Positions 3,001 through 28,061 of a stretch of DNA of 64,000 nt are shown here, one piece after another. The notes beneath the pieces are model-generated. The model did no database searches. It was given only the letters and a program-made list of their open reading frames with translations, and was not told where the DNA came from. The DNA lies in NCBI RefSeq assembly GCF_022865105.1, contig NZ_JAKNYM010000002.1:1-64000 (forward strand), written 5' to 3'. The stretch comes from Sphingomicrobium astaxanthinifaciens. Its GTDB lineage: Bacteria > Pseudomonadota > Alphaproteobacteria > Sphingomonadales > Sphingomonadaceae. Position 1 is the first letter of the stretch, and every line of letters starts with the position of its first letter. Made by a program: the position numbers and the translations under genes.

Positions 3001-6000
3001 GACTGTCGGTGCCGGTCGGCACGTCGGCATCGCTGGTCGACAGTTCGATGGCCAGCTCGGCGTCGAAGTCCTCGTTCGCGCTCGCCGCCGGGCTGTCGTC
3101 CTCGACCTCGACCGCGAAGCTGGTTTCGAGCGTGCCGCCGTTGCCGTCGTCGACGGTGAGCGGCACGGTGATGTCGAATTCGCTCTCGATATCGCCGTCG
3201 CCCGCGCCCAGCGTGCCGTGGAACAGCGGCTGGAGCAGGACGACGTCATAGCCGTCGTCGCTCGGGTCGCTGGCATCGGCGCCATAGTCGATGGTGATGG
3301 TGATCACGGCGGGACCGCCCTCGCCGGCGCGCCCGACGAGCTGCTCGGGATCGCTCGTATCCCAGACGATCTCGGTGCCGTCGGCGGTGTAGAGCGGCTG
3401 GTAGCCCTCGACCGCCGAGGGATCGCCCAGCGCATAGCTGAGGACATCGCCGGTATCGCCGTCGGCAAAGCCGAAGCTGCCGCTGGCGGTCGCGCTGTTG
3501 CTGTCGTCGCCCGCGGGGTCGCTGTCGGGCAGCGCGTTCTCGAGCCCCTCCTCGGACACCACCGCGCCGCCCGCCTGCCCGGTCGGCGGCTGGTTCGACC
3601 CGTTGATCGTCACGGTCAGCGTGGCGGTCGCCACGTCGCCGTCGGCATCGCGCAGGTAATAGGTGAAGGTCTCCTCGAGGGTGGCCCCGACCCCGAGCGC
3701 GAGGACCGCGTCATAATTGGCGCCCTCGGTGTCGATCACATAGGTGTAGCTGCCGTCGGCGTTGATGGTCAGCGTGCCATATTGGCCCTCGACCTCCATC
3801 GCGGCGCCGGCGTCGCTGTCGCCGCCGAAACCGTCGACCTGCGCGACCACCGCGCCGTCGGCCCCGACCTGGTCGGCGCCCGGCGCGTCGCTGATGACAT
3901 TGCCCGTGGCGCTGCGGCCGCCGTCGCTGTCGCTCACCTCGGTCGCATCGTCGTTGGCGGTCGGCACGTCGTCGCGCAGCGAGACGACGAAGCTGCCCGT
4001 CGCGCTGTCGCCATCGTCGGCATCGGTCACGACGAAGCCGATCGCGGGCAGGCTGAAGACGTCCTCGATGTCGGGGTCGCCCTCGGCGTCGCTCTGGTCG
4101 GGATGGTCGAGCGGCCCGGCCAGCTCGACGCTGTAATTGTAGGTGACCTCGTTGGTCGCCGCGTTCACGTCGGCGCTGTCGAGGCTGATGGTGAGGAGCG
4201 GTTCGCTCGCGCCCGCCACGGTGCCGGTGATGCTGTGGCCGTCCGCGCTCAGCGCGAACACCACCGCGAGCCCGCCCGAGGTCAGCCCGGCGGCGTTGAG
4301 CGCCTCGACCGTCGCCGCGGTGAAGGCGAAGCTCGCCATCGCGTCGGCCTCGCTCGGCGTATCCTGGTCGTCGCCGAAATCGACGGTGACGCTGCCGCTG
4401 AGGCTGGCCGCGCCGTCGGTCTCGATCGGCTGCGGTGCCACCTGCCCGTCATCGGCATTGGCGCCCGCCAGCGCGTCCTCGTCGGCCGACAGGTCGGCGG
4501 TCGGCCCGACCTGCGGGGTGCTGTCGGGCTCGAGCGCGATGGTCACCGTCGCGACCGCGGCATCGCCGTCGCCATCGACGATCCGATAGTCGAAGCTGAT
4601 CTCGCCCTGTTCGCCCGGCGCGGGGGTGTATCGGAACTGCCCGCCGCCGAGATATTCGAGCGTGCCCTCGCCGGTCAGCGTGCCTTCGACCAGCTCGATC
4701 CCGCTCGCGACTTCGCCCTCGCCCTCGGCGACCGGGTCGCTGTTCGACAGGTCGACCCCGTCGGCGCCCGCGGTGTCGTTGGCGAAGACGTCGATCAGGA
4801 CGGGCTCGCCCTCGTCGAGCTGGTTGACGGGATCATCAACCGCGCTCGGCACGTCGTCGACGATCTGGATGACCAGCGTGCCCTCGACGACGTCATCGTC
4901 GTTGGGGTCGTTGGGATCGTCGGGATCGGTGACGGTGATCGTGAAGACGTCGGTGGTGTCGTCGCCGTCGGTGTTGGTCAGCAGTTCGTAGGTATAGCTG
5001 AGCTGCCCCGCGACCGTATGGTCCACGGTGAGCACGCCGAGCTCGGTCTCGACCACGGTGATCTCGCCGACCGGGATCGGCACGCCGTTGATCTCGATCC
5101 CGCCGCTGATCGCGATCAGCGAGGGCGAATCGCCGTCGAGATAGACGATCACGCCGCTGGTCTTCTCGCCGTCGCCCGCGGCCGCCGAGCCGGGGCTGCC
5201 CCCCGCGCCGTCTTCGATGCCCGACTCGAACACGCGCGTGCCCTCGTCGCCGAGCCCCGGACCGTCACCGTCGGGGTCGGGCTGCGGCACGTCGACGTCG
5301 GGTTCCTCGTCGGGGATGACGATCGAGAGCGTGGCGGTCGATTCGCTGCCGTCGTCGTCGATGATGACGTAGGTGAAGGTGTCGGTCTTGCCGCCGGGGC
5401 CGCCCTCGAAGCGTTCGTAGCTCCAGGCGCCATTGGCCTCGACCGTCAGCGTGCCCCACTCGCCCTCGACGACATAGTCGGTGCCGCTGTGGAAGACGAG
5501 CGAACCGTCGTCGATCACGCCCCACGTCTCGATGCCGTCGGCCCCGGGGATGTCGGCGCTCGCCGATCCCCCGTCCGACCCCTCGCCCGTGAACACGTCG
5601 CCCGAGGCGCTGTCCTGGCCGAGGCCGAGCGTGACGACATCGTCGACCGCGGTCGGCGAATCGTCGAGGATGTTGACGGTCAACGTCGCGGTGTCGCTGT
5701 CCCCATCGGGGTCGGTGACCACCACGGTGAAGACGTCGCTGACGCCGTTGTCCGTATTGTCCGACAGCGTGTAGCTGAAGCTGACGGTGCCATCGCCGAT
5801 CGCGGTGATGGTGAGGATCCCATATTGCCCCGCGATCTGCTGGCCAACCCCGGTCACCACCGTGCCGTTGATCGTCAGCCCGCCATCCTCGATCAGCGTG
5901 CCCCGACTGTCGGGCGAGGAGAAGATGATGGTCCCGGTCGTGGTCTCGCTGTCGGTCGCCGCGGCCGAACCCTCGGGTTCGCCCGCGTCGCGCAGCGTGC

Positions 6001-6547
6001 CGTCGCCCGCGGGCAGCCCGTCCTCGGCCACCTGCGTGACCGCGTCGGGCACCGCGAAGGGCTCCTCGGGGGTGTCGATGTTCACCTCGGGGAGATTGTC
6101 CTCGATCACCCCGACCTCGCGGAATTCGGGCGGGGTGTAGAAGAGCGCGGTCGGCGGCAGCAGGTCGCCCAGGCCGATCCCCGGCCCGAGGTCGGGCACC
6201 GGGATGCCGAAGTTGCCCCCGCTCGAGGGGGTGTCGCCCGCGGCGGGCTGGGGCTCTTCACCGATCAGCAGCGCGGCGAGGGTGGTGGGGGGAACCTCGA
6301 TACCGCCGATGATGAGCTTGGGCACGAACACCGCGCCGCCGGCAATGATCATGACGCTGCCGTCGGGCAGCTCGACCACGAGGTCGCGCCCGACGACGGT
6401 GACGTCATCGAGCTCGACGCCCGCAGGCAGGATGACCGAGCCGCCGGGCCCGGGAGCCACGCGCACCGCGTTCTCGGGCAGCTGCGGCTGCTGTTCGCTG
6501 TCGGCGCCCAGCGCCGCCTGGGTCATCGAAAGATCATCCTGTCGCAT
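1..6547 (-). CDS. Giant VCBS/DUF5801-type repetitive adhesin, N-terminal 2182 codons (partial)
   Basis: The minus-strand frame from ATG at 6547 is open to the left edge, so the C-terminus is outside the window. The start is preceded by an AAGGTGGG ribosome site. The N-terminal 100 residues (VGRDLVVELPDGSVMII, then VFVPKLIIGG) resemble the cytoplasm-proximal modules of large type I secreted proteins. The rest is extremely Asp/Thr/Gly/Val-rich and beta-strand repetitive: VCBS-like units with GTLTINADGSYTY near residues 930 and 1400, and DUF5801-like units beginning EANPEAPALDG near 1625 and 2157. No Cys-rich or hydrophobic signal peptide is seen, as expected for type I secretion. Likely a calcium-binding surface or biofilm adhesin; the secretion signal and any RTX repeats would be in the missing part. 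Confidence 0.85.
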   Translation of the reverse strand, partial: MRQDDLSMTQAALGADSEQQPQLPENAVRVAPGPGGSVILPAGVELDDVTVVGRDLVVELPDGSVMIIAGGAVFVPKLIIGGIEVPPTTLAALLIGEEPQPAAGDTPSSGGNFGIPVPDLGPGIGLGDLLPPTALFYTPPEFREVGVIEDNLPEVNIDTPEEPFAVPDAVTQVAEDGLPAGDGTLRDAGEPEGSAAATDSETTTGTIIFSSPDSRGTLIEDGGLTINGTVVTGVGQQIAGQYGILTITAIGDGTVSFSYTLSDNTDNGVSDVFTVVVTDPDGDSDTATLTVNILDDSPTAVDDVVTLGLGQDSASGDVFTGEGSDGGSASADIPGADGIETWGVIDDGSLVFHSGTDYVVEGEWGTLTVEANGAWSYERFEGGPGGKTDTFTYVIIDDDGSESTATLSIVIPDEEPDVDVPQPDPDGDGPGLGDEGTRVFESGIEDGAGGSPGSAAAGDGEKTSGVIVYLDGDSPSLIAISGGIEINGVPIPVGEITVVETELGVLTVDHTVAGQLSYTYELLTNTDGDDTTDVFTITVTDPDDPNDPNDDDVVEGTLVIQIVDDVPSAVDDPVNQLDEGEPVLIDVFANDTAGADGVDLSNSDPVAEGEGEVASGIELVEGTLTGEGTLEYLGGGQFRYTPAPGEQGEISFDYRIVDGDGDAAVATVTIALEPDSTPQVGPTADLSADEDALAGANADDGQVAPQPIETDGAASLSGSVTVDFGDDQDTPSEADAMASFAFTAATVEALNAAGLTSGGLAVVFALSADGHSITGTVAGASEPLLTISLDSADVNAATNEVTYNYSVELAGPLDHPDQSDAEGDPDIEDVFSLPAIGFVVTDADDGDSATGSFVVSLRDDVPTANDDATEVSDSDGGRSATGNVISDAPGADQVGADGAVVAQVDGFGGDSDAGAAMEVEGQYGTLTINADGSYTYVIDTEGANYDAVLALGVGATLEETFTYYLRDADGDVATATLTVTINGSNQPPTGQAGGAVVSEEGLENALPDSDPAGDDSNSATASGSFGFADGDTGDVLSYALGDPSAVEGYQPLYTADGTEIVWDTSDPEQLVGRAGEGGPAVITITIDYGADASDPSDDGYDVVLLQPLFHGTLGAGDGDIESEFDITVPLTVDDGNGGTLETSFAVEVEDDSPAASANEDFDAELAIELSTSDADVPTGTDSQNYAGAFEFFAGGDGFFGGSEEAATSYELIVDTGIATGIFDTATGQEVQLRVDELGVVHGYVMVGSDEVDVFTVSASDDGTVTVTQLRAVLHFDEFGNESDAPEAIAEGALTLRATVSDEDRDTDTADLDLGSRIVFGDDGVEAVADTDEVTDTEGQLSATGNVITDAEANGDGGADDVSEDVPNEIIQIVGFEGDTDSRDFGSADGSLEVQGKYGTLTINADGTYTYTLDPTDPDYGDVIALNDGETLSEVFTYTLSDADDDTDVATLTITINGVDDGPVGEVGNAVVSEEGLEDGIADDDPAGDDTDLPSFTGDLDFSDPDDATLDYVLGAPTETLYTADGTAIIWDTSDPELLIGHTGDPTDPAITVAINYNDDTTSADDSYTVTLHKPVYHNGGDAAFDGDGNIESEVSFTVPLKVTDGTPSNDLDTSFTVFIEDDKPVVEANPEAPALDGLQTSDATLGAAGEDSQDYSGQFSVGFGADGPQDGNAASALVYTLGVNYNPDTDSTGLVDTEFGVAIDLRYDAVTGLVEGYFEFDGTEYVAFTLSVDGSGVVTLTQNRAVEHYDGEAIPANESDVPEGILGSNVITLTATATDEDDDSDSHTIDITGDISFADDEPSISVEQVGDDFTVALDETRPEGDDLDGPNAGPGDASETVDVSGFFTVGAADLSNDLPNTVSYKMVLVGGDVGVDSGLFALAAGGGKGEAIQLYLVDGVVVGSTAASIDLVTDDNSYFTIAVDDETGVVTFSQSQNVWHDNSGDNDDAVALELAPGTLGVEATITDGDDDTNDVPAVLDLSGGVFVIEDDGPSVSDATISRTVDEDGLDDGIAGGPDDVAGEITQVVGSVASLFDTGTDTPASYGINAVTSGLPALTSGGATVNYAVQGDTLVAYTGGNPDDLSARIFTLQVDSDGDYTFTLLGPIDHPSLDGEAGDDTENDLVLDLSSAIVASDADGDSVVAADGAFEITVDDDTPVVEANPEAPALDGLQTSDATLGAA
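1603..1679. repeat. 77-bp direct repeat, copy B (within giant adhesin)
   Basis: Identical to 1-77. After the shared block the sequences diverge at the right (ggcttg versus ggcgta), so the two repeat units are conserved only in this stretch. Such nucleotide-identical blocks point to recent unit duplication or gene conversion within the adhesin. Confidence 0.9.
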
Positions 6548-6765
6548 TTCGTCCCACCTTCATGCCGTTGCGAGCGGTTGGTCGGACCGCCCCCTGTTGA
6601 TCGGTGGATGCTGGCGTCGCCGTTGAACGGAATTGGTTAACGCACCGACAGCCCACCGCTTCAGATGCCGAAGGAAATCATCATTCGCGAAGCAAAAGCA
6701 AGTCTAGCCCATGCATCGGTGATTCGACTTGGGTCGAACGATGCGAGTAATCGTGAACTCCTACT

Positions 6766-6785
6766 GTTAACCTTCTACGGTTAAC
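6766..6785. promoter_or_regulatory. Inverted repeat GTTAACC-N6-GGTTAAC, candidate operator
   Basis: Perfect 7-bp arms separated by 6 nt, about 220 bp upstream of the adhesin start. The spacing and symmetry are those of a dimeric repressor or activator site; the cognate factor is unknown. Confidence 0.4.
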
Positions 6786-6843
6786 TCGCGACGGAATTTG
6801 CATCCTACTACCTGCCGGCTCGACGGGTCTTCGCCAAATTCAA

Positions 6844-6867
6844 GTCGACCATATATTTTAGGTCGAC
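6844..6867. promoter_or_regulatory. Inverted repeat GTCGACC-N10-GGTCGAC, candidate operator
   Basis: Perfect 7-bp arms around an all-A/T 10-nt spacer (atatatttta), about 300 bp upstream of the adhesin start. The A/T spacer could itself hold a -10-like element. Function is inferred only from symmetry and position. Confidence 0.4.
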
Positions 6868-7119
6868 CGTTTCTAATGAAATCATGACCACGACTTGTAA
6901 AATTGATGCAGGTCAAGCTTTTTAAGTGATGGTAAATCGCTCATTATCCATTTTCATATAATCCGCGGTTAAATTTGGACTTGGAACCACAACCGCGCAT
7001 CGACCGCGATTTTCTTCGCCAGCCGCGTCCCGAAACGACACAAGGGGGTCGCGCGGCGGGTCGGCTGGCCGACACCGGCGCGACTCGTCACGCCGCCGCA
7101 ACCACCGAGTCGCGGCGCC

Positions 7120-15349: not shown

Positions 15350-15363
15350 TGGCGGAGACGGAG
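15350..15363. repeat. attL, 14-bp copy of the tRNA-Ser 3' end
   Basis: TGGCGGAGACGGAG is identical to 27969-27982, the CCA end of tRNA-Ser. Left of it the DNA is GC-rich core; right of it the composition drops and the integrase begins 156 bp later. This is the expected pattern for integration into a tRNA 3' end. Confidence 0.8.
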
Positions 15364-15482: not shown

Positions 15483-15503
15483 TGTGGGAACCATCGTGGG
15501 AAC
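15483..15503 (+). promoter_or_regulatory. Bipartite repeat TGTGGGAAC-N4-GTGGGAAC, copy 1
   Basis: Two GTGGGAAC half-sites 13 bp apart, just upstream of the integrase start. The same arrangement recurs at 20380-20400 (inverted) and 27893-27913. Position near both ends of the island suggests integrase arm-type binding sites. A TTGACA hexamer at 15455-15460 upstream could be a -35 element. Confidence 0.5.
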
Positions 15504-15519
15504 CACGGAAAGGGAAAGC

Positions 15520-16692
15520 ATGGCAGGCGGTTTGACAGCATTGAAGGCGAAGAGCCTCAAAAAGGCTGGACGATATACCGATGGCCGGGGGCTTATGCTC
15601 TACGTGAAGGCTAGTGGGTCCAAGAGTTGGGTGTTGCGCCTCACCATTGACGGAAAGAGGCGGGACATTGGTTTAGGTAGCTTCGATGATGTCTCTCTGG
15701 CGGATGCGCGCGCCAAGGCCGACGAGCTGAGATTGCTAGTAAAGTCTGGCGTTGATCCCACCCGCCTCGACGATCCTGGCAAGGCCGGGGCAGCAATGAC
15801 CTTCCGTGAAGCGGCCAAAGCCGTCCACGAGGAACGAAAGGACGGCTGGAAGAATCCAAAGCATGCTGCCCAGTGGCTCTCCTCACTCGAGGAATACGCA
15901 AACCCATACATCGGCGAAAAATTGGTAGCCGATATCGACGGCCCCTCAATTCGTGATTTGCTGGCCGAAATTTGGCTATCAAAGCCTGAGACCGCAAGGC
16001 GCGTTCGCCAGCGGATAGGCACGGTGCTCGATTGGGCATACGCTCGAGGCCTCAGGAACAGTGAGGCTCCTTTACGATCGATCAGTCGGGGACTGCCACG
16101 CCAGCCAAAAAAGGACAGCCATTTCGCTGCTCTGCCTTACGTCGAGCTTCCCACCCTGATCTGCCAACTTTCTGAGCGGAGCACCGTGGGTAGGCGCGCG
16201 CTGCAATTTTTGATTCTTACTGCTGCCCGCTCGGGTGAGGTTCGTGGGGCGACCTGGCGTGAAATCGACCTTGAGCGAGGCCAATGGAACATACCGGGTG
16301 ACAGGATGAAAATGGGCAAGGACCACAAGGTCCCGCTTACCCCTGCTTCTACGAAAATCCTCATCGAGATGGCTGAAGCGGGCACGCCAGCCGAAGGGAT
16401 CATTTTCCCTGGCCAAAGAGGTCGCCCCATGTCCGACATGACCTTGATGAAAGTTCTCAGGACCGCCCTACCCGGATCGCATACCGTCCACGGATTGCGC
16501 TCCTCGTTTCGGGACTGGGCCGCAGAGCAAACAGATTACCCGGGCGAAGTAGTGGAGGCGGCCCTGGCTCATGCTGTCCAAAACCGAGTAGAAGCCGCCT
16601 ATCGCCGGACAGATTTTTTCGACAAGCGAAAGAGGCTGATGGAGGAATGGGCGTCCTTCTTGTATCGTAGCGACTACAAGGCTGGCCCCTGA
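15520..16692 (+). CDS. int: P4-type tyrosine recombinase/integrase
   Basis: Catalyses site-specific integration and excision at tRNA-Ser. I choose ATG 15520 (390 aa), preceded by AGGGAAAG, over the in-frame GTG at 15484 that lies inside the arm-like repeat. The N-terminus is the DUF4102 arm-binding domain (GRYTDGRGLMLYVKASGSKS, GLGSFDDVSLADAR). A SAM-like core-binding domain follows at about 90-185. The catalytic domain has Arg in TAARSGEVRG, HGLRSSFRDW, LAHAVQNRVE and the nucleophile Tyr in EAAYRRTDFF. All key residues are present, so it is likely active. Confidence 0.93.
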   Translation: MAGGLTALKAKSLKKAGRYTDGRGLMLYVKASGSKSWVLRLTIDGKRRDIGLGSFDDVSLADARAKADELRLLVKSGVDPTRLDDPGKAGAAMTFREAAKAVHEERKDGWKNPKHAAQWLSSLEEYANPYIGEKLVADIDGPSIRDLLAEIWLSKPETARRVRQRIGTVLDWAYARGLRNSEAPLRSISRGLPRQPKKDSHFAALPYVELPTLICQLSERSTVGRRALQFLILTAARSGEVRGATWREIDLERGQWNIPGDRMKMGKDHKVPLTPASTKILIEMAEAGTPAEGIIFPGQRGRPMSDMTLMKVLRTALPGSHTVHGLRSSFRDWAAEQTDYPGEVVEAALAHAVQNRVEAAYRRTDFFDKRKRLMEEWASFLYRSDYKAGP

Positions 16693-17484: not shown

Positions 17485-17658
17485 ATGTATCCCATTACCA
17501 TTTCGATCAACGATGCGGCTCAAGCGATGGGCATTGGTCGGACCAAACTCTACGAGCTGATCAACAAGGGCGATGTCACCGCCGTTAAGGTCGGGCGCCG
17601 AACCCTCATCAAAACCTCCAGCATCGAAGCCTTCGTTTCGAATTTGGAGGCCGCATAA
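17485..17658 (+). CDS. AlpA/excisionase-family HTH protein
   Basis: A 57-aa winged-helix protein: MYPITISINDAAQAMGIGRT, then KLYELINKGDVTAVKVGRRT and a helical end. This is the HTH_17/AlpA pattern of excisionases and satellite regulators. Its stop TAA overlaps the primase ATG by one base (TAATG), so it is probably co-translated with it. The likely job is controlling excision or the replication genes downstream, inferred from family and context. Confidence 0.85.
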   Translation: MYPITISINDAAQAMGIGRTKLYELINKGDVTAVKVGRRTLIKTSSIEAFVSNLEAA

Positions 17659-18599
17659 TGTCAGTCATTCGCGATGCAACGGCCCGAAAGCTCGAAACTC
17701 CGATCGCTCAAGTGATCGAACAGTATGTCCCCCTCAAAAAACAAGGCGATCACTACATGGGGCAGTGCCCGTTCCATACAGATCGAACGCCGAGTTTTAT
17801 GGTGCAGGATAATGTTGGGAATTGGGAAGCCGGGCATTTCCACTGCTTCGGATGCGAAGCTCACGGCGACGTCTACGATTTCCTAAAGCGCTACCACGGT
17901 ATCAGCTTCATCGATGCCCTTTATATGCTCGGCGCCGAACCGGAAGTTCCGATGCACGACCTCCCCCCAAAACCCTTCAGGGATGGAGACAAGCGAGCGG
18001 CGGTCGAGCGGATCTGGTCTCACTCATATTCCATAAAGGCCTGTTCTCCCGTGGGTGACTATCTCGCCAGCCGAGGCATCGCGGTCGAAGAGCTTTCTGG
18101 ATTGGAGAACCTCCGTGAGACGAAGCTGCCGTTTCGCGGAGATGGAAAAGAACATCCCGTTCTGATCGCGGGATTGCGCGACGGAAATGGTGATCTCACT
18201 GCAATTCAACGAACATTCTTGACGCCCGAAGGACAGAAGCTTGCCGGCCCGGAAAGTAAGCGCTCGCTTGGCACCGTGCGCGGCAGTGCAGTCAAAATCG
18301 GGGACAGCGTCGAGGAGTTGGTGATTTGCGAAGGCCTTGAGGACGCACTGACTTTGCGCCTTGCCAACCCAAGCGTCAGCGTTTGGGCGGCCGCGGGGGG
18401 AAACATGCTTTGCTCCCTGCCAATTCCGGACGAATGCACCCGCCTCACTATCGCACGGGACAATGACGAGGCTGGCAAATCCGCCGTCGAAGCGTCGGCT
18501 AAAATGTTCTGGCGTGAAGGACGGCAGATTAGCGTGATGGCGCCTTCCCCGGAGTTCAAAGACTTCAATGAGGAACTGCAGGCGAGTCTGGAGCTGTGA
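17658..18599 (+). CDS. CHC2 zinc-finger/TOPRIM primase
   Basis: A 313-aa DnaG-like primase of a satellite element. Residues 35-65 form the zinc finger CPFH and FHCFGCEAHG; HGDVYDFLKRYHGISFIDAL follows as in DnaG. The TOPRIM domain lies at about 215-285, with LVICEGLEDALT (catalytic Glu) and LTIARDNDEAG (acidic motif). There is no helicase domain, which the next gene may supply. The next gene starts within its last codons (GTGA overlap). Confidence 0.9.
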   Translation: MSVIRDATARKLETPIAQVIEQYVPLKKQGDHYMGQCPFHTDRTPSFMVQDNVGNWEAGHFHCFGCEAHGDVYDFLKRYHGISFIDALYMLGAEPEVPMHDLPPKPFRDGDKRAAVERIWSHSYSIKACSPVGDYLASRGIAVEELSGLENLRETKLPFRGDGKEHPVLIAGLRDGNGDLTAIQRTFLTPEGQKLAGPESKRSLGTVRGSAVKIGDSVEELVICEGLEDALTLRLANPSVSVWAAAGGNMLCSLPIPDECTRLTIARDNDEAGKSAVEASAKMFWREGRQISVMAPSPEFKDFNEELQASLEL

Positions 18600-20140
18600 C
18601 AATGCAAGCAATCGCGAAGGCTTACAACGAAGCGGAACAGCTGAAGCAACCTCCGAGCGAAAATTGGGAGCTTCCGGTGTCGTTGCCGTCAACCTTGCCA
18701 GATGTTCCGAGTTTCGACCCCTATCTTCTACCGGCCAACCTACGCCCTTGGATTGTAGACATCTGCGATCGAATGCACTGCCCGCTAGATTTTGCGGCAA
18801 TTCCAGCAATGGTTGCGGTGGGTTCGTTGGTCGGAAAGAGGGTGGGGATCCGCCCGGAGGCGCATACGGACTGGACTGAAGTGGCCAATCTCTGGGGGTG
18901 CATCGTCGGACGTCCTGGCGCGATGAAGAGTCCAGTAATTTCTGAGGTCCTCGGCCCCATCAAACGGCTCGAAGCACGGGCCATGAAACGTAATGAAGAA
19001 GCTCGTGCGGAATTCTCACAACGTGAGGCTATCAACAAACTTCAAAATGAGGAGGCCAAAAAGCGCATTCGTAAGCGGTTTGCAAAGGATGGCGCAAAAA
19101 CATCCGACATCTCTCTCGATGATTTCGAGAGCCTCGAACCTCCCATCGAACAGCGTTTCATGACGACCGACGCTACCGTCGAAAAATTGGGGGTGATTTG
19201 CGCCGACAATCCAAATGGCGTGCTCCTATATCGTGACGAGCTACTGACGATGTTTCAGGATCTAGACCGTGAAGAGAAAGCTGCGTCCCGTGGCTTTTTC
19301 CTTACCGGATGGAGTGGCAGTGACTCCTATACGTTTGATCGAATTGGGCGCGGGACCGTCCGGGTCGAAACAGTGAACTTGTCAGTTATCGGAAGCGCCC
19401 AGCCGCATCGGATCGGAAAGTATCTAAAGGAGTCGCTTCGAACTCATGATGATGGAATGGTTCAGCGGCTTCAGTTGCTTGCCTGGCCAGACCATGACAC
19501 TGCCTGGCGCAGCGCGGATCGTTATCCAAACGTCGAAGCCAAGACCAAAGCGCTCGCGTGCTTTGATCGCCTCGCAGATTTGAAGTGGTCTTCCGTTGGC
19601 GCGGATCGTGACGACTTTGATGATGGTTCCGGCGTTCCATTCCTCCGGTTCGAACAGGAAGCTCTCGAGGAATTTGTCGATTGGCGAATGGAGCTAGAGG
19701 ACCTCGTCCGAGGAGATACGCTGCCGCCTTATCTCGCTGCTCACCTATCGAAGTTCCGTGGTCTTGTGCCTCGTCTCGCTCTGATCTGGCATCTTGCAAG
19801 CGATGGCTTCGGCCCTGTTTCGGTTGAAGCGTGCGGGACTGCTATCGAGTGGGCGGCGTATCTGCGGGCCCATGCCGAACGTGCCTATGATGCGATGTCC
19901 TTGACCAACACAGACACGGCAAACGCCATTCTTCAGAAAATTCGGGCGGGCGACCTTAAAGCAGGTTTCACCGAGCGGGACGTCTACCGCCCAGGGTGGA
20001 GTGGCTTGCGAGATCGCGATGCAAATAAGGCAGCCCTCGCACTTCTAGCTGACCACGACTGGGTCCGACCCAAGCGAGTGGAGACGGGAGGGCGCCCGTC
20101 AACCGAGTGGGACGTTAATCCCAAAATTTCTGGCAATTAG
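18596..20140 (+). CDS. DUF3987 protein, putative replicative helicase-like ATPase
   Basis: A 514-aa protein of the DUF3987 family found next to primases in satellites and integrative elements. GTG 18596 overlaps the primase stop; ATG 18602 is an alternative start. Visible features are LPANLRPWIVDICDRMHCP near the N-terminus, a P-loop-like IVGRPGAMKSPV at about 103-114, an acidic YRDELLTMF at about 205 that could act as Walker B, and FLTGWSGSDSYTFDRIGRG. A C-terminal winged-helix-like region (FTERDVYRPGWSGLRDRDA) may bind DNA. The helicase role is inferred from family and its coupling to the primase. Confidence 0.8.
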   Translation: MTMQAIAKAYNEAEQLKQPPSENWELPVSLPSTLPDVPSFDPYLLPANLRPWIVDICDRMHCPLDFAAIPAMVAVGSLVGKRVGIRPEAHTDWTEVANLWGCIVGRPGAMKSPVISEVLGPIKRLEARAMKRNEEARAEFSQREAINKLQNEEAKKRIRKRFAKDGAKTSDISLDDFESLEPPIEQRFMTTDATVEKLGVICADNPNGVLLYRDELLTMFQDLDREEKAASRGFFLTGWSGSDSYTFDRIGRGTVRVETVNLSVIGSAQPHRIGKYLKESLRTHDDGMVQRLQLLAWPDHDTAWRSADRYPNVEAKTKALACFDRLADLKWSSVGADRDDFDDGSGVPFLRFEQEALEEFVDWRMELEDLVRGDTLPPYLAAHLSKFRGLVPRLALIWHLASDGFGPVSVEACGTAIEWAAYLRAHAERAYDAMSLTNTDTANAILQKIRAGDLKAGFTERDVYRPGWSGLRDRDANKAALALLADHDWVRPKRVETGGRPSTEWDVNPKISGN

Positions 20141-20400: not shown

Positions 20401-20659
20401 GCGGCTAAGACCAGCGCACTCCTCTCGGCTAAGCACTCAACGCTCGTTATTTGTCTGGCCGCAAGGCTCCCTAGGAGGAATAATTGAGAGGCGTCGCCCC
20501 ATGTAGTTGTCGGAACGCCGGTCCGGCGGCTTGGTAGTAATGAAGGCATTTGCCAGACGCTTTGATTGCGGCAACGTTAGGGCGCCGGATGGTCGCCCGC
20601 GCGGGCGAGCTCGACAAGAGCAAGCGTTAGGTCTCCGGGCTGGCGGCGTAGCTGTCACC

Positions 20660-21661
20660 ATGGCAAAGAGTGGTATGGCGCCTTTATCCAGCTACTCCTT
20701 TCAGCAGTTCACGCTTGATGAGCTTCCACTCCGACGAGACACATGGATGATGGAAGAAGTCTATTTCGGCGACTGGGAGGCGGAATGGCTTAAAACCATT
20801 CACGGCGACGCTGAGGCCTCTCCTTATGACGTCGGCTATATCACGCGGGTCAGCATCGAGGAGGTGACGCCTGCAGGAGCGGATATCCGGTGGTATCCCA
20901 ATATCCATGACCGCTTTCATGTTGTGAAGACCTTCCTCCCGCGAGAAGCTTTTGTAGCTGCAGCCTTGGCCTATAAGTTTGAAAAACGGGTCAGCGTCTT
21001 CGTTAAAAGCGAGTGGCTACGGAAGCTGCATCTTCGCTCCAACTCGATCTTTGTCATGATCGACGCAAAGGACATGACGGCTGCAATTAAGGATGGCCTG
21101 ATCACCCACGAGAAGGTCATCGCGCTCCGCGATGCACTGGACGCGTTTGCGGGACGCTATCCCTTCATCTCATTCATATCGTTCGCGGACAGCCTGTTGC
21201 TCAAGACCAACTGGACTGCTGGCATGGTCGATACCGATGTCGAATACACCTATGTGCCAGAAAGACTGCTGGTCCTGTTTCAGCAGCTGCAGACGCTTTA
21301 TAGGGACACGCTGGGCCTCGAAATCTACGCCGTGCTCGCGCAAGGCTCGAACGAATACTATGATGATCCGTTGCTTCATATTTCCGAAGAGAAGAATCAT
21401 ATTTCGCTGAACAGCCTGGGCTTGCCGTTTGCGCAAATCGCTCAGATCGAGGGGGCCGCACGAAAGGCCATTCGTGCCGGGGAGCACCCACCCATGGAGA
21501 TCTACATGGACAGCGACCTATTCCACTCGCTTATGTTCAAGAATTACGAGCGGAAGGATAGCTGGCCGTCAGCACCCTACAAACCGAAAATGATCTCGGA
21601 GCCAGGCAGCTACCATTATGCTATGTGCGACGATCTCCTGGCGTGCTTGAGTCTGCCGTGA
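20660..21661 (+). CDS. Hypothetical protein, unknown family (333 aa)
   Basis: Not recognised. I use ATG 20660 (or 20675) because the open frame further upstream to 20507 is Arg/Gly-rich and non-native looking. No clear ribosome site precedes either start. The protein is soluble, with aromatic-rich segments (YVPERLLVLFQQLQTLYRDT; YSFQQFTLDELPLRRDTWMM). Its centre contains SVFVKSEWLRKL and YPFISFISFADSLLLKTNW. No transmembrane segment, signal peptide or nucleotide-binding motif is evident. It is the first cargo gene after the replication module, so a defence or accessory role is possible but unproven. Confidence 0.65.
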   Translation: MAKSGMAPLSSYSFQQFTLDELPLRRDTWMMEEVYFGDWEAEWLKTIHGDAEASPYDVGYITRVSIEEVTPAGADIRWYPNIHDRFHVVKTFLPREAFVAAALAYKFEKRVSVFVKSEWLRKLHLRSNSIFVMIDAKDMTAAIKDGLITHEKVIALRDALDAFAGRYPFISFISFADSLLLKTNWTAGMVDTDVEYTYVPERLLVLFQQLQTLYRDTLGLEIYAVLAQGSNEYYDDPLLHISEEKNHISLNSLGLPFAQIAQIEGAARKAIRAGEHPPMEIYMDSDLFHSLMFKNYERKDSWPSAPYKPKMISEPGSYHYAMCDDLLACLSLP

Positions 21662-23256: not shown

Positions 23257-24231
23257 TTATACCCCCGGCGCCTGAGGTATCTCTTCTGCACCTGAGACAA
23301 AGAAATGATGCTGTTGACTCTCATTCAAATAATTAGCGAATGCGATTCGGGAATCCGCGAGAGATTTATAGTAAGTTCGAAATGCCGATGAGATTTGATT
23401 TGCCCGGGCTCTGGTTGGCGGCACCGGGATCTCGATTTCCAGATAGCGAGCGCCAACATCCTCACGGTTTGTTTGCATGAAGATTATCCGACGCCATTGG
23501 TTACGCACAACTTTCAAAGAAAGTGCCCAAAGAAGATAGAATGGATCGAAATCTGCCTCTGGCCCTGGCCGAAGGACAATGACCTCTTTCGTCATCACCA
23601 CTCTCTCCTGTCCCGGCAAGAGAATGCAAAAATCGCCGATGTTCTTGGACGTCCGCTCTGGGCAAACTAAATCAAATGCCTCCAAACCAGAGTGACTGCC
23701 TTTCCAAAACTTCTGAGCAACTGAAAGAGGTATCCGGTTGGTTGGGTTAATGTTCACCAGTCCGGCACGCAGGTCAGATACCTTGATATATGGCACATCG
23801 CCAATCCGTTCGTCCGCTGAAGGGGAACCATGCCCATTCCGGACGGTAAGCATTCCACGCTCAATGAGTGACCCAATCGTATCGGTCTTAAAACCGTCAA
23901 ACTGAGGGTCCTTCATGGCCTCGCGAAACTGCTCCTGATAGCGCTGATCGTAATAGACTGGAACGGCACAATGGAGATCTATTTTCGAATTAGGAATAAA
24001 GTTCAGCGTCTCGGTCTTTTCGCCACCTGCCAACGCAAGCGCATCGCGCTTTAGTTTGTCATCTATCGCGTCAACAGCAGCGCCGGTTTCAGGATCGACC
24101 TCTTGGACACGCTTCCCAGTGTGGGGATCGATGATCGGCAGAAGGCGTCCGCCTTTGGTTAGCCCGCATGTCGATGCAGTCGAAACCATGATCGCTTCAT
24201 CTGAGAACCAGCTTGGCTTGTGGATGCTCAC
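23257..24231 (-). CDS. Type I-like DNA specificity (S) subunit, single target-recognition domain
   Basis: Directs the preceding methylase-nuclease to its DNA target. The start is GTG 24231, overlapping the methylase stop as GTGA; the open frame upstream of it is a shadow of the methylase. The 324-aa product has an N-terminal region (PIIDPHTGKRVQEVDPETGA), then a target-recognition domain with VPYIKVSDLRAGLVN, NRIPLSVAQKF and EVIVLRPG, and a C-terminal helical segment (ARANQISSAFRTYYKSLADS). Classical HsdS has two such domains in about 400-450 aa; BcgIB-type subunits are about 340 aa. So it probably works as a dimer or in a type IIB-like complex. Confidence 0.75.
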   Translation of the reverse strand: MSIHKPSWFSDEAIMVSTASTCGLTKGGRLLPIIDPHTGKRVQEVDPETGAAVDAIDDKLKRDALALAGGEKTETLNFIPNSKIDLHCAVPVYYDQRYQEQFREAMKDPQFDGFKTDTIGSLIERGMLTVRNGHGSPSADERIGDVPYIKVSDLRAGLVNINPTNRIPLSVAQKFWKGSHSGLEAFDLVCPERTSKNIGDFCILLPGQERVVMTKEVIVLRPGPEADFDPFYLLWALSLKVVRNQWRRIIFMQTNREDVGARYLEIEIPVPPTRARANQISSAFRTYYKSLADSRIAFANYLNESQQHHFFVSGAEEIPQAPGV

Positions 24232-25937
24232 TTGATTTTTCCTTTCCCGACCAAAGCTTTGCTGCTCTTCTTTGGAATTGAAGAGGAATCGAAGTCCGCT
24301 TCTACGTGTCCGATTTTCTCGAAAATATAGAAATTCGTTTTCGCGCGACAGAATTCTTCGAATGCCTCCATAGGAATGTTTAGCATTCCTCTTAACGCCA
24401 GCCGATCTTTGAGCCAGAATGGCAGCCATCGATAAGAGTGACTAAAGAAGTAGGTTTCTGGAAGAACTATTCCGATTCTACCCCCAACACGCAATAGTCT
24501 ATAGCATTGTTCAAGATATACTAATCCTATCTCTAAGTCAGCGAAGTCTTTGGGGCCCTTCATTGCAGCATATGTAGAGATAGAGTATCCAGCAGCGCGG
24601 CAGTCAGCAGCTTTAACCTTGAGGCTGGATCCAAAAGGTGGGTTAGTGATAGCAACCGTGAATTGCTCGAGCCCATGTTTCTCTGAGGTCGAACCTAATT
24701 CTTGGCTCAACTTAGGGTATTTCGTTGGCCATTGATTGGTTCGAACGGCATCGCCGAGAAGAACGTGCGTGGAGCCATCTCTCATCGCCACCATCGTAGC
24801 TTTTGTTAGTTTGACACCAATGTCGTCCTTATCCACGCCATAGAGGTTGTCGTTAGCCCATTTAACAAGGTGATAGGCTTCGTCCTCGTTGGGGAACTCC
24901 CGCTGAGCAACCTGCCTTAGAGCCTCGACTACAAAGGCACCAGAACCGCACGCTGGATCAATGACCTTGTCTGAGGAGGTCACTTCCATCGCCATAACCG
25001 CCGGCCGAACGACTCTGAGCGGCGTTAGATATTGCCCCTCACCGCTCTTCAGAGCCGACGTTCGGAAGATTTGGAATGCCTTGGCGAGCAAATCAACGTC
25101 ATCGCCAAGAATACGATACGGGCTTAATTCGGCTACAACGGCAAAGATGGTCTCATCGCTCAGGAATAGCTCTTCTCTATCCGAGGCATTAAAGATTCGC
25201 GTCCTCTGCTTGTGATAATACTCCCTGTAATCTTCCCTTACTCTAGCCGCAGTGAGTGCAACTTTGGTCATTGCGTCGCCAAGGATCCTGAAGCGCACAG
25301 CCTTGTCTCGGTTTGCTGAGCGGCTCGCCACAGCATCGCTGTCTAGCTTAACCAGTAGTATATGCAGCAATTCACGGAGCTGATCTTCACGCCTAACTAC
25401 GTGTGGATCTGAAACCACCACAGTTGCGACCAGTCGCTTAAGAGCTCCTGAGAGCTCGGCTTCGGTAGGTAAACGCATCGTATCCCACGAGGGCGGGACA
25501 TCTGGCGGCTGCGTCATGTCATCGCTAGGATGAGGAAGTGCCGCGTTCTCAACAAATACCCAGTCCGACTGATGACGCTTGTAGACCGCTAAAGTCTGGC
25601 TGCCGTTAGTCCAAAAACCCATCTTGGCCATCGGCTCGTTGCTTAGGTAGCGGATCAACTGAGACCGTCCCGCATCGATGTCAGGAGCTTTGAATTCAAA
25701 GACTACCTGTAGGGCAAACCATTCCCCACTCTCGTCGGCAAACGCGACTAAATCGGCGGACCCGCAGGTGGCGTATTTCTGTCCACGCTCGCGCTTCGTC
25801 AGGTCATGTGGCGTGTCAGGCACTTGCCACTCAGGCTTCCAGCGGAGCTGCGCCTCTTTCCATCCGAGCTCTTGCAAATCTTTGATAACTCGCTGTCTGA
25901 CAGCTTCTTCAGGTTTAACAGGTTTTAGGATGGTCAT
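24228..25937 (-). CDS. N6-adenine DNA methylase with N-terminal HsdR-like nuclease domain
   Basis: A 569-aa fusion. Residues 50-120 hold a PD-(D/E)XK-like core: ADLVAF and then VVFEFKAP (Asp...Glu-x-Lys), as in HsdR N-terminal domains, followed by RSQLIRYLSNEP. The central and C-terminal parts are an HsdM-like methylase: KAFQIFRT, GQYLTPLRVV, the SAM motif DPACGSGAFVVEAL, the catalytic NPPF and GIVLPETYFFSH. Length is below the 637 aa of BcgIA but the layout is alike, suggesting restriction and modification in one chain. Start ATG 25937 lies within the 97-aa gene by 23 nt. A methylase-only role with a vestigial nuclease is the alternative. Confidence 0.8.
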   Translation of the reverse strand: MTILKPVKPEEAVRQRVIKDLQELGWKEAQLRWKPEWQVPDTPHDLTKRERGQKYATCGSADLVAFADESGEWFALQVVFEFKAPDIDAGRSQLIRYLSNEPMAKMGFWTNGSQTLAVYKRHQSDWVFVENAALPHPSDDMTQPPDVPPSWDTMRLPTEAELSGALKRLVATVVVSDPHVVRREDQLRELLHILLVKLDSDAVASRSANRDKAVRFRILGDAMTKVALTAARVREDYREYYHKQRTRIFNASDREELFLSDETIFAVVAELSPYRILGDDVDLLAKAFQIFRTSALKSGEGQYLTPLRVVRPAVMAMEVTSSDKVIDPACGSGAFVVEALRQVAQREFPNEDEAYHLVKWANDNLYGVDKDDIGVKLTKATMVAMRDGSTHVLLGDAVRTNQWPTKYPKLSQELGSTSEKHGLEQFTVAITNPPFGSSLKVKAADCRAAGYSISTYAAMKGPKDFADLEIGLVYLEQCYRLLRVGGRIGIVLPETYFFSHSYRWLPFWLKDRLALRGMLNIPMEAFEEFCRAKTNFYIFEKIGHVEADFDSSSIPKKSSKALVGKGKIK

Positions 25938-26208
25938 TTTGTCTCTCGATGCTTGAGATCAGTGGATACCTCAAATTTTCTAAAAAACCGACGATGAGGG
26001 GATCTGGTGGAGACAAAATTTCTGATCTTTCCACAAATTTGAGAGCATGCATTCCCTGCCACATTGTTCGACCATAGATTTGTTCATCTTCATTGAGCGA
26101 GCGCGGCTCAGTTGGGTAACCAACAAGGCTCTTCGTCCGATACGGAAATGCCGACTGACCGAATTTGATGTGCGCCGTCAATGAGCGAGGCGACCACGGT
26201 ATTCGCAT
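25915..26208 (-). CDS. Unknown 97-aa protein inside the restriction operon
   Basis: Not recognised. It begins 13 nt after the SRA-HNH stop and ends 23 nt inside the methylase gene, so it is translated within the operon. The sequence (SLTAHIKFGQSAFPYRTKSL, then IYGRTMWQGMHALKFVE and LIVGFLENLRYPLI) looks like a compact mixed alpha/beta domain without metal or nucleotide motifs. A structural, inhibitory or control function within the restriction system is possible from position alone. Confidence 0.55.
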   Translation of the reverse strand: MRIPWSPRSLTAHIKFGQSAFPYRTKSLVGYPTEPRSLNEDEQIYGRTMWQGMHALKFVERSEILSPPDPLIVGFLENLRYPLISSIERQNDHPKTC

Positions 26209-26221
26209 GATGGATAACGGG

Positions 26222-27067
26222 TTATTCTGAGCGCCACAAATTACGATGATATTCCAAGTGCTTCTGGTTCAATTGGTGCCTAGGGATCGTGCGAAGTTTA
26301 CCGTCGATTCCGTCGATTCCGTCGATCAGATAGGCCTCGTCAATCGTGAAGCCGCCAGCGTCAAAAAGCACATGATGATTGGGGCATAGGCAAAGCAGAT
26401 TGTCTTCAGTATCCGGTCCATTGTGTGGCTTGCCAAGCGGGCGGATATGGGCACCTTCCGCGTATAAACCACCGATGCATTCCAGGGTAATACCGCATAC
26501 CTGGCAACAATAGCCGTGCCATCCTTTGACACGACGGCTCATGGCTGTGTCACGAACGATCCGCTGAACCGTCACTGCCGAACGGGTGACAACCTTGGAT
26601 GAGGTTATCCTGTCAGGCAACTCATCTGGAGCTAGAGCTTCCAATCTGAAGCGGCAGATCTGAAAACCGTCTCGGCCTTCTTCACGCCAATAACGGCCAA
26701 CTCGGTATGTTCCATCGTAGCGGAAGCCAGAATGGGGAGCGAACTCATTATGCCTTCCACCGCGGATGACGCGAACGGGCAGTCCACGCAGGTGGCTGGT
26801 TACAAGCGCTTTGTTTTGTTTAACGAAATGCTGATCCGCAACCTGCCGACCGGTGTTCGGATCCCGGCCGCCGGAACCCGTATAAATAACGAACTCGCCA
26901 AAATCTTCGTCATCTGGATACCCGCCAGATAGAACGATTGATTCTGCGCCTTCGGCCGCCCTGCCTACGATGCCTGCCTGGAGAGCGCGATGGACACCAG
27001 CATCATACAGTGAACGTCGACTCTCAAATTCAGTGCCTACCGCGACTTGGTCCAAATGCCCTATCAA
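26222..27067 (-). CDS. SRA(YDG)-HNH modification-dependent endonuclease
   Basis: A 281-aa restriction protein expected to recognise modified cytosine through its SRA domain and cut with an HNH domain. Start TTG 27067 sits 6 nt after GAGGAG and overlaps the Nudix stop (TTGA); the longer open frame to 27169 is a Nudix shadow. SRA spans about residues 5-160: GTEFESRRSLYDAGVHR, SGGYPDDEDFGEFVIYTG and the YDG motif in FRYDGTYRV. The HNH domain at about 200-270 has CCQVCG, AEGAHIRPL, DNLLCLCPNHHVLFD. Known relatives with this order are TagI- and ScoMcrA-type enzymes. Exact modification specificity cannot be read from sequence. Confidence 0.88.
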   Translation of the reverse strand: MIGHLDQVAVGTEFESRRSLYDAGVHRALQAGIVGRAAEGAESIVLSGGYPDDEDFGEFVIYTGSGGRDPNTGRQVADQHFVKQNKALVTSHLRGLPVRVIRGGRHNEFAPHSGFRYDGTYRVGRYWREEGRDGFQICRFRLEALAPDELPDRITSSKVVTRSAVTVQRIVRDTAMSRRVKGWHGYCCQVCGITLECIGGLYAEGAHIRPLGKPHNGPDTEDNLLCLCPNHHVLFDAGGFTIDEAYLIDGIDGIDGKLRTIPRHQLNQKHLEYHRNLWRSE

Positions 27068-27468
27068 GACTTGCTCCTCGTGGCTTTCGCGCGCTTCCGG
27101 ATCCGTTTGGCGATAGGGATGTCGGCGGGCGCCAGATTCAACTCCATAAGCTCTTCTGGGGCTTTCCAAGCGAACTGGTCATGCACTGTGAGGATGAAGT
27201 TGGTGCCGTGAATTGCGACCTCAATTCCAATTAGTGAGACTGCTCCGCCAGGGTAATTGTATTCTGAGACGGTTAAGACCTCTCCGGCGGTCGAAGTTAC
27301 GCCCAATTCTTCTTGAAGCTCGCGCTCAATGCACGTTTTGACGTCTTCCCCTGGTTCAAGTTTGCCGCCAGGAAACTCCCAATATCCGGCCAATTTCTGT
27401 CCAGGCGCCCGCCGTGTGACAAGGACTTTTCCTTCTCTAAACGCGATAGCTGCTGCGACGCTTTTCAA
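27064..27468 (-). CDS. NudG-like Nudix (CTP/modified-dCTP) pyrophosphohydrolase
   Basis: A 134-aa Nudix hydrolase, TTG start 27468 after GGGGGAAG. The Nudix box is complete: GGKLEPGEDVKTCIERELQE followed by ELGV. AGYWEFPGG and the late LAPADIPI motif match the NudG/CTP-pyrophosphohydrolase branch more than MutT. E. coli NudG hydrolyses 5-methyl-dCTP and other modified pyrimidine nucleotides. First gene of the five-gene defence operon, overlapping the SRA-HNH start by TTGA. I infer it may clear modified dCTPs that would otherwise make host DNA a substrate for the SRA-HNH enzyme. Confidence 0.85.
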   Translation of the reverse strand: MKSVAAAIAFREGKVLVTRRAPGQKLAGYWEFPGGKLEPGEDVKTCIERELQEELGVTSTAGEVLTVSEYNYPGGAVSLIGIEVAIHGTNFILTVHDQFAWKAPEELMELNLAPADIPIAKRIRKRAKATRSKS

Positions 27469-27968: not shown

Positions 27969-27982
27969 TGGCGGAGACGGAG
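27969..27982. repeat. attR, 14-bp repeat in the tRNA-Ser 3' end
   Basis: TGGCGGAGACGGAG, identical to 15350-15363. It covers the CCA end and acceptor strand of the tRNA. The match stops at base 27983 (g versus t). Confidence 0.8.
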
Positions 27983-28061
27983 GGATTCGAACCCTCGATA
28001 CAGGGATTACCCGTATGACGCTTTAGCAAAGCGTTGGTTTCAGCCACTCACCCACGTCTCC
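27969..28061 (-). tRNA. tRNA-Ser(GCU)
   Basis: A 93-nt class II tRNA on the minus strand. The acceptor stem GGAGACG pairs with CGTCTCC, the anticodon stem ACGCT/AGCGT encloses loop TTGCTAA with anticodon GCT, a long variable arm follows, the T-arm has GGTTCGAATCC, and CCA is encoded. It reads AGC/AGU codons. Its 3' end is the island attachment site, and integration left the tRNA intact. Confidence 0.95.

Follow-up and report, generated by a model that had tools for sequence, protein, structure and literature searches.

A NudG-like Nudix gene coupled to a TagI-family SRA-HNH gene in a putative integrative island of Sphingomicrobium astaxanthinifaciens

Described relatives and composition of the locus

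Modification-dependent restriction enzymes are usually regarded as needing no partner, as the host is without the modified base. TagI, ScoA3IV and TbiR51I, in which an SRA domain is followed by an HNH domain, are the closest described relatives of one enzyme of the present locus. In the available text on TagI the flipped-base pocket is formed by Tyr55, Asp58 and Tyr67 and the HNH region contains Asn245, His254 and Asp258; its authors note that the lack of toxicity to the host appears surprising and account for it by a host lacking C5-methylases (PMC6212794). A second relative is the RM + S group of type IIB restriction enzymes, represented by BcgI and BsaXI. Finally, in Streptococcus, SauUSI homologues have MutT homologues as neighbours (Bell et al. 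2020, PMC7641849, Fig. 9 legend), an adjacency that the legend tags 'DNA repair' and that section 11, within the text available, leaves without explanation.

The window analysed here, a stretch of 64,000 nucleotides, contains five open frames on the minus strand (23257-27468), encoding a Nudix hydrolase, an SRA-HNH endonuclease, a 97-aa frame, an RM fusion and an S subunit, which together would make up the defence genes carried by a putative integrative island:

27064..27468, minus strand: Nudix hydrolase, NudG/MutT-like, 134 aa, TTG start; member of the restriction-associated branch
26222..27067, minus strand: SRA-HNH endonuclease of the TagI family, 281 aa, TTG start
25915..26208, minus strand: 97-aa open frame, its gene status backed by length alone
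24228..25937, minus strand: RM fusion, PD-(D/E)XK nuclease with N6-adenine-type methylase, 569 aa
23257..24231, minus strand: S (specificity) subunit, 324 aa, GTG start; one TRD region recognisable by eye
15484..16692, plus strand: tyrosine integrase of the putative island
17658..18599, plus strand: CHC2/Toprim primase of the putative island
18596..20140, plus strand: DUF3987 helicase-like protein of the putative island
15350..15363, plus strand: first copy of a 14-bp direct repeat; putative attachment site on the integrase side
27969..27982, plus strand: second copy of the 14-bp direct repeat, at the 3' end of tRNA-Ser
27969..28061, minus strand: tRNA-Ser (GCT), putative integration target

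Re-reading of the sequence gave the gene order, the strand and the four joins of the original prediction: a TTGA overlap between Nudix and SRA-HNH, a 13-nt gap before the 97-aa frame, an overlap of 23 nt between this frame and RM, and a GTGA overlap between RM and S. The domains then named were also recovered (NUDIX, SAD_SRA, HNH_2 and N6_Mtase, with HSDR_N_2 below the Pfam cut-off). The joins are as claimed; that they make one transcription and translation unit of all five frames is less well supported, the 97-aa frame being weak as a gene. A search for relatives of this frame found none, its GC is flat by codon position, and its codon score is near the bottom of the range, with about 5% of windows taken from eight genes nearby scoring lower. 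An open run as long arose in only 63 of 2000 shuffles, so that length alone mildly favours a gene. We lean towards its not being one, in which case 284 nt would separate SRA-HNH from RM. Promoter and terminator scans gave sites no more numerous than in shuffled sequence. In the five congeners tried for an empty site (5/5) the tRNA side matches and the left flank does not; hence the left border of the island rests on the 14-bp repeat and the integrase.

The Nudix branch and its predicted reader-nuclease neighbours

The SRA-HNH protein contains SAD_SRA (2.6e-44) and then HNH_2 (5.3e-13), the domain order of the TagI family, and matches TagI at 1.1e-73. It keeps in the alignment 7/7 of the TagI residues considered, Y50, D53 and Y62 in the pocket and H207, N223, H232 and D236 in the HNH region, TagI His229 being deduced from the Ala228 directly upstream that is named in the available text (PMC6212794). 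As originally predicted, it is to judge from sequence a type IV-like enzyme, here assigned to the TagI family, and its cleavage is predicted to depend on 5mC or 5hmC. No C5-methylase was found in the one host genome (0/1), with the family matched in 10/14 controls, and in this the host is like that argued for TagI. The locus differs from TagI, ScoA3IV and TbiR51I in the coupling of the same two domains to an overlapping Nudix gene; in three other canonical SRA-HNH loci no relative of the window's Nudix, of RM or of S was detected (0/3). Locus L034 has a gene of another Nudix kind, NudF-like by eye, at a distance of about 1.3 kb and in the opposite orientation. Literature searches on SRA-HNH coupled to Nudix found no paper.

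The Nudix protein matches NUDIX at 2.7e-19, with a Nudix box intact by eye, and its closest solved structure is 2rrk, a CTP pyrophosphohydrolase (5.6e-22), which is tabulated in the available text of PMC5389931 as the E. coli 5-methyl-dCTP pyrophosphatase. Its score against the NCBIfam NudG model NF007834 (94.5 bits) is under the equivalog cut-off of 156, and against MutT TIGR00586 it is likewise under the cut-off; it was not filed as NudG, and may still work in a NudG-like way. The PADLOC label PDC-S07 (138.5 bits) was dropped as a sign of defence, since the same model matches 162/200 genomes at 1e-20 and the label is no evidence of it.

The association of this Nudix with nucleases was examined by searches blind to neighbours, the flanks being tested over 1.5 kb with 11 nuclease queries at 41 loci. 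Among 296 genomes, all three top Nudix relatives (E 1e-31 or better, well clear of the others) adjoin a predicted reader-nuclease, as against none of the eight weaker matches. A second search of 164 genomes, an overlapping sample, gave 2/2 for close relatives, hence 5/5 in total, from four genomes; Fisher's test yields p 0.0008, a rough value that pools the results of both searches. Four of these five overlap an SRA-like-HNH gene on their 3' side, by 8 nt in three and by about 14 in L107, where the gene is cut by the contig, and the fifth follows a GIY-YIG gene. The branch also occurs in fusions, HNH-Nudix (L043) and Nudix-Vsr (L044). Loci L093 and L095 were found by an HNH query, and both are close to L040. 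Distant branch members (L109, L110, L111 and L121) precede enzymes which, from their architecture, we take to be of SauUSI type. The Streptococcus loci of Bell et al. are alike in placing a NudG/MutT-like Nudix beside a SauUSI-type enzyme; the available text of that paper makes no connection with other reader-nucleases (PMC7641849).

In a tree of the Nudix proteins, whose rows were labelled with the neighbours already known, 17 rows labelled as associated and four others fall on one side with support 98/95, the opposite side being made up of 33 rows that are MutT-like or unpaired. The tree took 35 of the 38 control loci, three having no Nudix alignment over 100 residues. One of these four others, L065, had been entered as a control and was later found to precede a SauUSI-like gene; three branch members of one genus have no such nuclease nearby by the 11 queries. 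Klebsiella NudG, whose branch is long, was placed on the opposite side.

Nucleases with predicted modified-base readers repeatedly accompany the Nudix branch, as neighbours or as fusion partners. The join of a Nudix with such a nuclease, found elsewhere as well, was not singled out in the original prediction. The tie runs one way, as most SRA-like-HNH genes examined are without Nudix: 3/13 plasmid records carrying them have one, all from Priestia, or 4/14 counting the Paenibacillus fusion. In the plasmid Nudix sample, 11 hand-chosen records of 72 that pass over most of the NudG records of E. coli and Klebsiella, the proportion of 9/11 is indicative only. By eye no reader-nuclease was seen in the one phage record examined of 17. 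Assignment of the reader domains is weak. Matches to EVE and RAMA lie under the Pfam cut-offs, L039 has its EVE-like part named from 31.5% identity to L041, and the SRA-like domain was recognised from a profile match at 1.4e-4 (52%). One Aerococcus SRA-like-HNH gene adjoins a C5-methylase, which makes a plain 5mC trigger a poor fit there. Among the papers inspected in literature searches on the general pattern none described it, which does not show absence.

A proposed nucleotide-pool antidote and competing readings

We favour, with a probability of about 0.6, a defence cargo made of two independent modules, the Nudix and SRA-HNH pair with the Nudix as antidote acting on the nucleotide pool, and a type IIB-like RM + S. 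The TTGA-coupled pair would be a modification-dependent restriction pair. In incoming DNA, by analogy with TagI, SRA-HNH would flip out 5-methyl- or 5-hydroxymethyl-cytosine, with the HNH domain cutting nearby. The Nudix would hydrolyse 5-modified dCTP, so that replication and salvage do not bring the trigger base into host DNA, and it would thereby take, at the level of the pool, the place that the methylase has in ordinary restriction systems. We infer here the Nudix substrate, the cleavage and the protective role. The model predicts higher toxicity of SRA-HNH without the Nudix.

Extension of this role to the whole NudG-like branch is more tentative, and we would give it somewhat less than even odds. 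Across bacteria the branch would be the self-protection part of modification-dependent restriction, removing 5-methyl- and 5-hydroxymethyl-dCTP, and would have been recruited several times, next to SRA-HNH, SRA-like-HNH, EVE-like-HNH, GIY-YIG and SauUSI-type enzymes and in HNH and Vsr fusions. If so, type IV restriction would have an antidote after all, directed at the nucleotide pool instead of DNA. Such a dedicated partner, if real, would help to explain how these enzymes enter new hosts and outlast infections in which the cell is flooded with modified nucleotides. The pairing may show how bacteria protect themselves from modified-cytosine nucleases, and the branch could serve annotators as a marker for further modified-base nucleases.

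The Nudix might instead belong to the attack, destroying phage 5-hydroxymethyl-dCTP so that phage DNA made in part with plain cytosine is open to RM + S and modified DNA is cut by SRA-HNH. NudG as the closest solved structure and the adjoining RM + S are in keeping with it, and the pairing with several reader-nucleases fits it and self-protection equally well. However, the other Nudix pairs examined show by eye no such RM + S in the displayed stretch, and phage pools, being large, may be more than a minor host enzyme can drain; we consider the proposal unlikely. Nor do we think it probable that the Nudix is a general repair enzyme or pool cleaner (of 8-oxo-dGTP or similar) which accompanies nucleases and limits the mutagenic or oxidative consequences of DNA damage. 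Its similarity to MutT (TIGR00586, 80.9 bits for a cut-off of 97.9) and the 'DNA repair' tag of such genes in the available text of Bell et al. (PMC7641849) speak for that role, but MutT-like genes as such are not found near these nucleases (0/8 weaker matches; 1/30 best PDC-S07 loci, namely L065), and what the nucleases share is predicted modified-base readers and not a nuclease fold.

The RM and S unit

RM + S resembles an N6-adenine restriction-modification system, in line with the modification-protected system originally proposed. RM matches N6_Mtase (1.1e-17) and HSDR_N_2 (1.7e-4; 22.1 bits, under Pfam's 25), and contains PD-(D/E)XK residues D62, E81 and K83 and methylase motifs DPACGSG and NPPF; these residues and motif letters, the S of GSG excepted, are invariant in 18 aligned sequences. 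Its best solved relative is RM.BsaXI (7.6e-16, methylase part); its own structure model is poor (pLDDT 57). S has no Pfam match and matches PADLOC Specificity_I at 2e-5; its structure model (pLDDT 73) retrieves HsdS folds and the BsaXI S chain at low TM (0.29-0.43 by query length).

S adjoins RM in 21/22 loci, the 22nd (L029) being cut by its contig; L021 and L022 come from the same assembly, on separate contigs. The spacing is -4 to +6 nt in 17 of the 18 loci measured, and the 18th has a broken RM. The alignments (18 sequences for RM, 19 for S) exclude the distant L006, L007 and L036, and also L012, L022, L027 and L029, which are cut, duplicate or frameshifted; that of RM further excludes L010, with the broken RM. 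The only other family common to at least three RM loci is integrase-like, in three; no helicase-like family is common to at least three of these neighbourhoods, which fits the lack of an ATPase in type IIB. An RM fusion with PD-(D/E)XK and N6-adenine motifs and a separate S with HsdS fold in the same operon are likewise type IIB characters. RM + S is a conserved two-gene unit, type IIB-like, alike to BcgI and BsaXI in the fusion and the separate S gene; it differs in the length of RM (569 aa, 916 in BsaXI) and in an S of 324 aa with one recognisable TRD. RM also matches the MAD2 profile NF047738 over 437 residues (8.8e-45). Membership in MADS was rejected, the score being 153 bits for a cut-off of 720 and only RM (mad2, 8e-24) and S (mad5, 0.0016) of the five proteins resembling mad genes.

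The two modules can coexist, as originally argued, because a type IV-like enzyme stands alongside an N6-adenine-type system, and the genome search for C5-methylases agrees. That all five genes are one co-evolved system against unmodified and modified phage DNA, the earlier view, has the common strand and tight joins in its favour and is nevertheless rejected as very improbable, since SRA-HNH or the 97-aa frame accompanies RM in 0/22 loci and SRA-HNH of this kind (E <= 1e-15) occurs in 0/21 RM-bearing genomes, a search with no positive within it whose profile matched elsewhere. The check proposed with that view, a search for the ordered set in other genomes, was run on RM loci, RM-bearing genomes and SRA-HNH loci, and the set is not kept together. 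Close relatives of RM and SRA-HNH, the only ones searched for in viral contigs, were absent there.

In the favoured two-module reading, and by analogy with BcgI and BsaXI, the S-guided fusion would methylate host adenine at its site and cut unmodified sites. Type IIB systems of this group have two TRDs in S for a bipartite site and cut on both sides of it. Here one TRD-like region was recognised by eye in the alignment of S and in its structure model, with the N-terminal 100 residues left unassigned. The TRD region is the most conserved part of the family (mean pairwise identity 0.74). It is unusual for a restriction-modification family to vary least in the part that recognises its site, and one may ask why the target stays unchanged.

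Two modules at one end of a putative island

The open frames on the minus strand of the window that the original prediction had joined in a single operon are present, with the order and the joins described there:

27064-27468, minus strand: Nudix hydrolase
26222-27067, minus strand: SRA-HNH nuclease
25915-26208, minus strand: frame of 97 aa
24228-25937, minus strand: RM fusion (nuclease and methylase)
23257-24231, minus strand: S subunit

They occupy one end of a putative integrative island, which also holds a tyrosine integrase (15484-16692), a CHC2/Toprim primase and a DUF3987 protein. A 14-bp repeat has one copy by the integrase (15350) and the other at the 3' end of tRNA-Ser (27969). When the empty site was sought in congeners, the tRNA side was matched and the left flank had no match in all five tried. 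The region separating the replication genes from the defence cargo encodes a 384-aa protein (20507-21661) without Pfam or PHROGs match.

The proposal that the five genes combine a modification-dependent nuclease and a modification-protected system in one unit was not supported. The RM protein was used to scan genome contigs, yielding 22 loci (identity 62-88%, with the L029 match spanning just 100 residues; one assembly contributed two contigs, L021 and L022), in which all five window proteins were looked for by script. Neither SRA-HNH nor the 97-aa frame occurs in any of them, and the single system is replaced by two modules: module A (Nudix and SRA-HNH), a new form of type IV-like restriction in which a Nudix accompanies the nuclease, and module B (RM and S), a further example of an already known kind of R-M system. 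Weak Nudix matches were seen in two RM loci, on the other strand in L014 and about 8 kb away in L022.

We lean towards the 97-aa frame not being a gene. Family, plasmid and locus searches match nothing but itself, its GC by codon position is flat, and only about 5% of the windows taken from eight genes nearby have a lower codon score; an equally long open run in only 63 of 2000 shuffles counts towards a gene.

The RM and S genes

The RM loci come from proteobacteria, Geobacter, actinomycetes and a Candidatus Eremiobacteraeota bin. S directly follows RM in 21 of the 22, the remaining contig stopping inside RM. Of 18 loci in which the distance between the two genes was measured, 17 have -4 to +6 nt; RM is broken in the other one. 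No variation was seen among 18 RM sequences at nuclease residues D62, E81 and K83 or in the DPACG and NPPF motifs of the methylase. The best solved relative of RM is RM.BsaXI (7.6e-16, methylase part only); a search with a structure model of S (pLDDT 73) had HsdS structures as its top hits, at low TM-scores, and the BsaXI S chain came 27th. The type IIB 'RM + S' group, as outlined in PMC11997821, has this layout.

Within module B, conservation peaks in the TRD region of S: its mean pairwise identity is 0.74 (lowest 0.64), the methylase having 0.72 and the nuclease 0.67. The relatives were found via RM, so this conservation of S was not selected for. In distant relatives S is at 53% versus 43% for RM (Corynebacterium) and at 43-51% versus 37% (Thermus), while locus L036 is mixed (S 40 and 59%, RM 43%). 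Conservation of the TRD across several phyla (window 23257-25937, loci L008-L028) runs opposite to the diversification that S subunits usually show.

SRA-HNH and the close relatives of its Nudix partner

SRA-HNH matches TagI across almost its full length (1.1e-73) and, in the alignment, keeps all base-pocket and active-site residues given for TagI in the available portion of PMC6212794, where TagI is described as cutting 5mC and 5hmC DNA and as toxic in Dcm+ E. coli. A C5-methylase is absent from the window's genome; the family was detected in 10 of 14 control genomes. Nucleases of this kind are rare (at 1e-30, 2 of 397 other genomes in the phylum sample and 0 of 295 in the order sample; one plasmid record at a cover of at least 80%), and none of these three other loci carries a relative of the window's Nudix. 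One of them, L034, has a NudF-type-looking Nudix gene about 1.3 kb off on the other strand.

The PADLOC label PDC-S07 on the Nudix means little, because the model hits 162 of 200 genomes (1e-20); this candidate-defence model matches MutT-like genes, and its calls are not to be counted as defence systems. When 296 genomes of an order sample were searched blind with just the Nudix, three relatives stood well clear of all other hits: L059 (61%), L060 (58%) and L061 (48%). A five-sequence profile in an overlapping family sample of 164 genomes added L107 (73%) and L108. All five, from four genomes, adjoin a nuclease gene; such a gene within 1.5 kb was found for none of the eight weaker matches of the first search. 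In L059, L060 and L108 the Nudix overlaps the HNH gene behind it by 8 nt, in L107, where the contig breaks off, it shares about 14 nt with the start of a gene of the same family, and in L061 it comes after a GIY-YIG gene. The HNH part of the paired proteins is nearest to EcoKMcrA and their N-terminal domain resembles SRA; the profile match having only E 1.4e-4 and probability 52%, 'SRA-like' is a moderate claim.

The GIY-YIG (T5orf172) protein of L061 (5540-6547) carries a weak RAMA match, the Nudix of the same branch beginning 6 nt later, and L059 has a similar-looking gene about 3 kb from its Nudix-HNH pair. In L107 a gene that by eye looks like a PD-(D/E)XK nuclease (599-1141) shares 4 nt with the Nudix 5' end, and a gene at 5 kb distance (5807-6874) is related (42%) to the HNH portion of the Paenibacillus fusion listed below.

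Distant Nudix members and the possible role of the Nudix

Plasmid records with a Nudix match numbered 72; in 9 of 11 hand-chosen ones the Nudix either neighbours or forms a fusion with a nuclease, base-reader or R-M gene, those of S. parapaucimobilis and Klebsiella being without such a neighbour.

Nudix associations in hand-chosen plasmid records
Sphingomonas daechungensis: with EVE-like-HNH protein
Priestia: with SRA-like-HNH, 4-nt overlap
Paenibacillus: HNH-Nudix fusion
Collinsella aerofaciens (L044, 4986-5975): with Vsr mismatch endonuclease in one 329-aa protein
Selenomonas: adjoins EVE-like gene
S. aureus: fragmented copy directly 5' of PLD-helicase enzyme, SauUSI type
Two lactobacilli: directly 5' of SauUSI-type PLD-helicase enzymes, DUF3427 found in these
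Lactobacillus amylolyticus: before Eco57I-like methylase

The Nudix tree splits (98/95) into a side with the 17 rows labelled associated plus four more, and a side with 33 rows that are MutT-like or unpaired. One of the four, the control entry L065, turned out to have a SauUSI-like neighbour; the remaining three, of one genus, are without such a nuclease neighbour.

An enzyme cutting modified DNA would have no methylase as host shield, and the danger would be modified bases entering host DNA, for instance through salvage of degraded phage DNA. By removing 5-methyl- or 5-hydroxymethyl-dCTP the Nudix would guard the host at the level of the pool, which is most likely how module A works. The guard model fits the finding that one Nudix branch is common to enzymes united by a predicted reader of modified bases rather than by their nuclease fold. 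A Nudix acting in attack, draining the nucleotide pool of the phage, would fit the genomics almost as well. The nearest solved structure to the window's Nudix is NudG (2rrk), listed as a 5-methyl-dCTP pyrophosphatase in a section of PMC5389931; the window's protein falls below the NudG cut-off, and Klebsiella NudG, on a long branch, lies on the other side of the tree from the associated rows. The tie is also one-sided, the Nudix being found in only 3 of 13 plasmid records with SRA-like-HNH looked at, all Priestia, and the phage record that was examined (1 of 17) has no such nuclease by eye. On an Aerococcus urinaeequi plasmid (L097, 17-3822) the SRA-like-HNH gene adjoins a C5-methylase and a MutH/Sau3AI-type nuclease, and the methylase speaks against simple 5mC-triggered cutting by this enzyme.

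A figure legend in Bell et al. 2020 (PMC7641849) mentions Streptococcus MutT homologues that adjoin homologues of SauUSI; for the general pattern of Nudix/MutT with modified-base nucleases no other paper was found, judged by titles and abstract openings in mostly open-access literature. In Tepidibacter hydrothermalis (L094, 2569-3831) a 420-aa protein has an extra N-terminal domain, without Pfam match and EVE-like by eye, before its SRA-like-HNH part.
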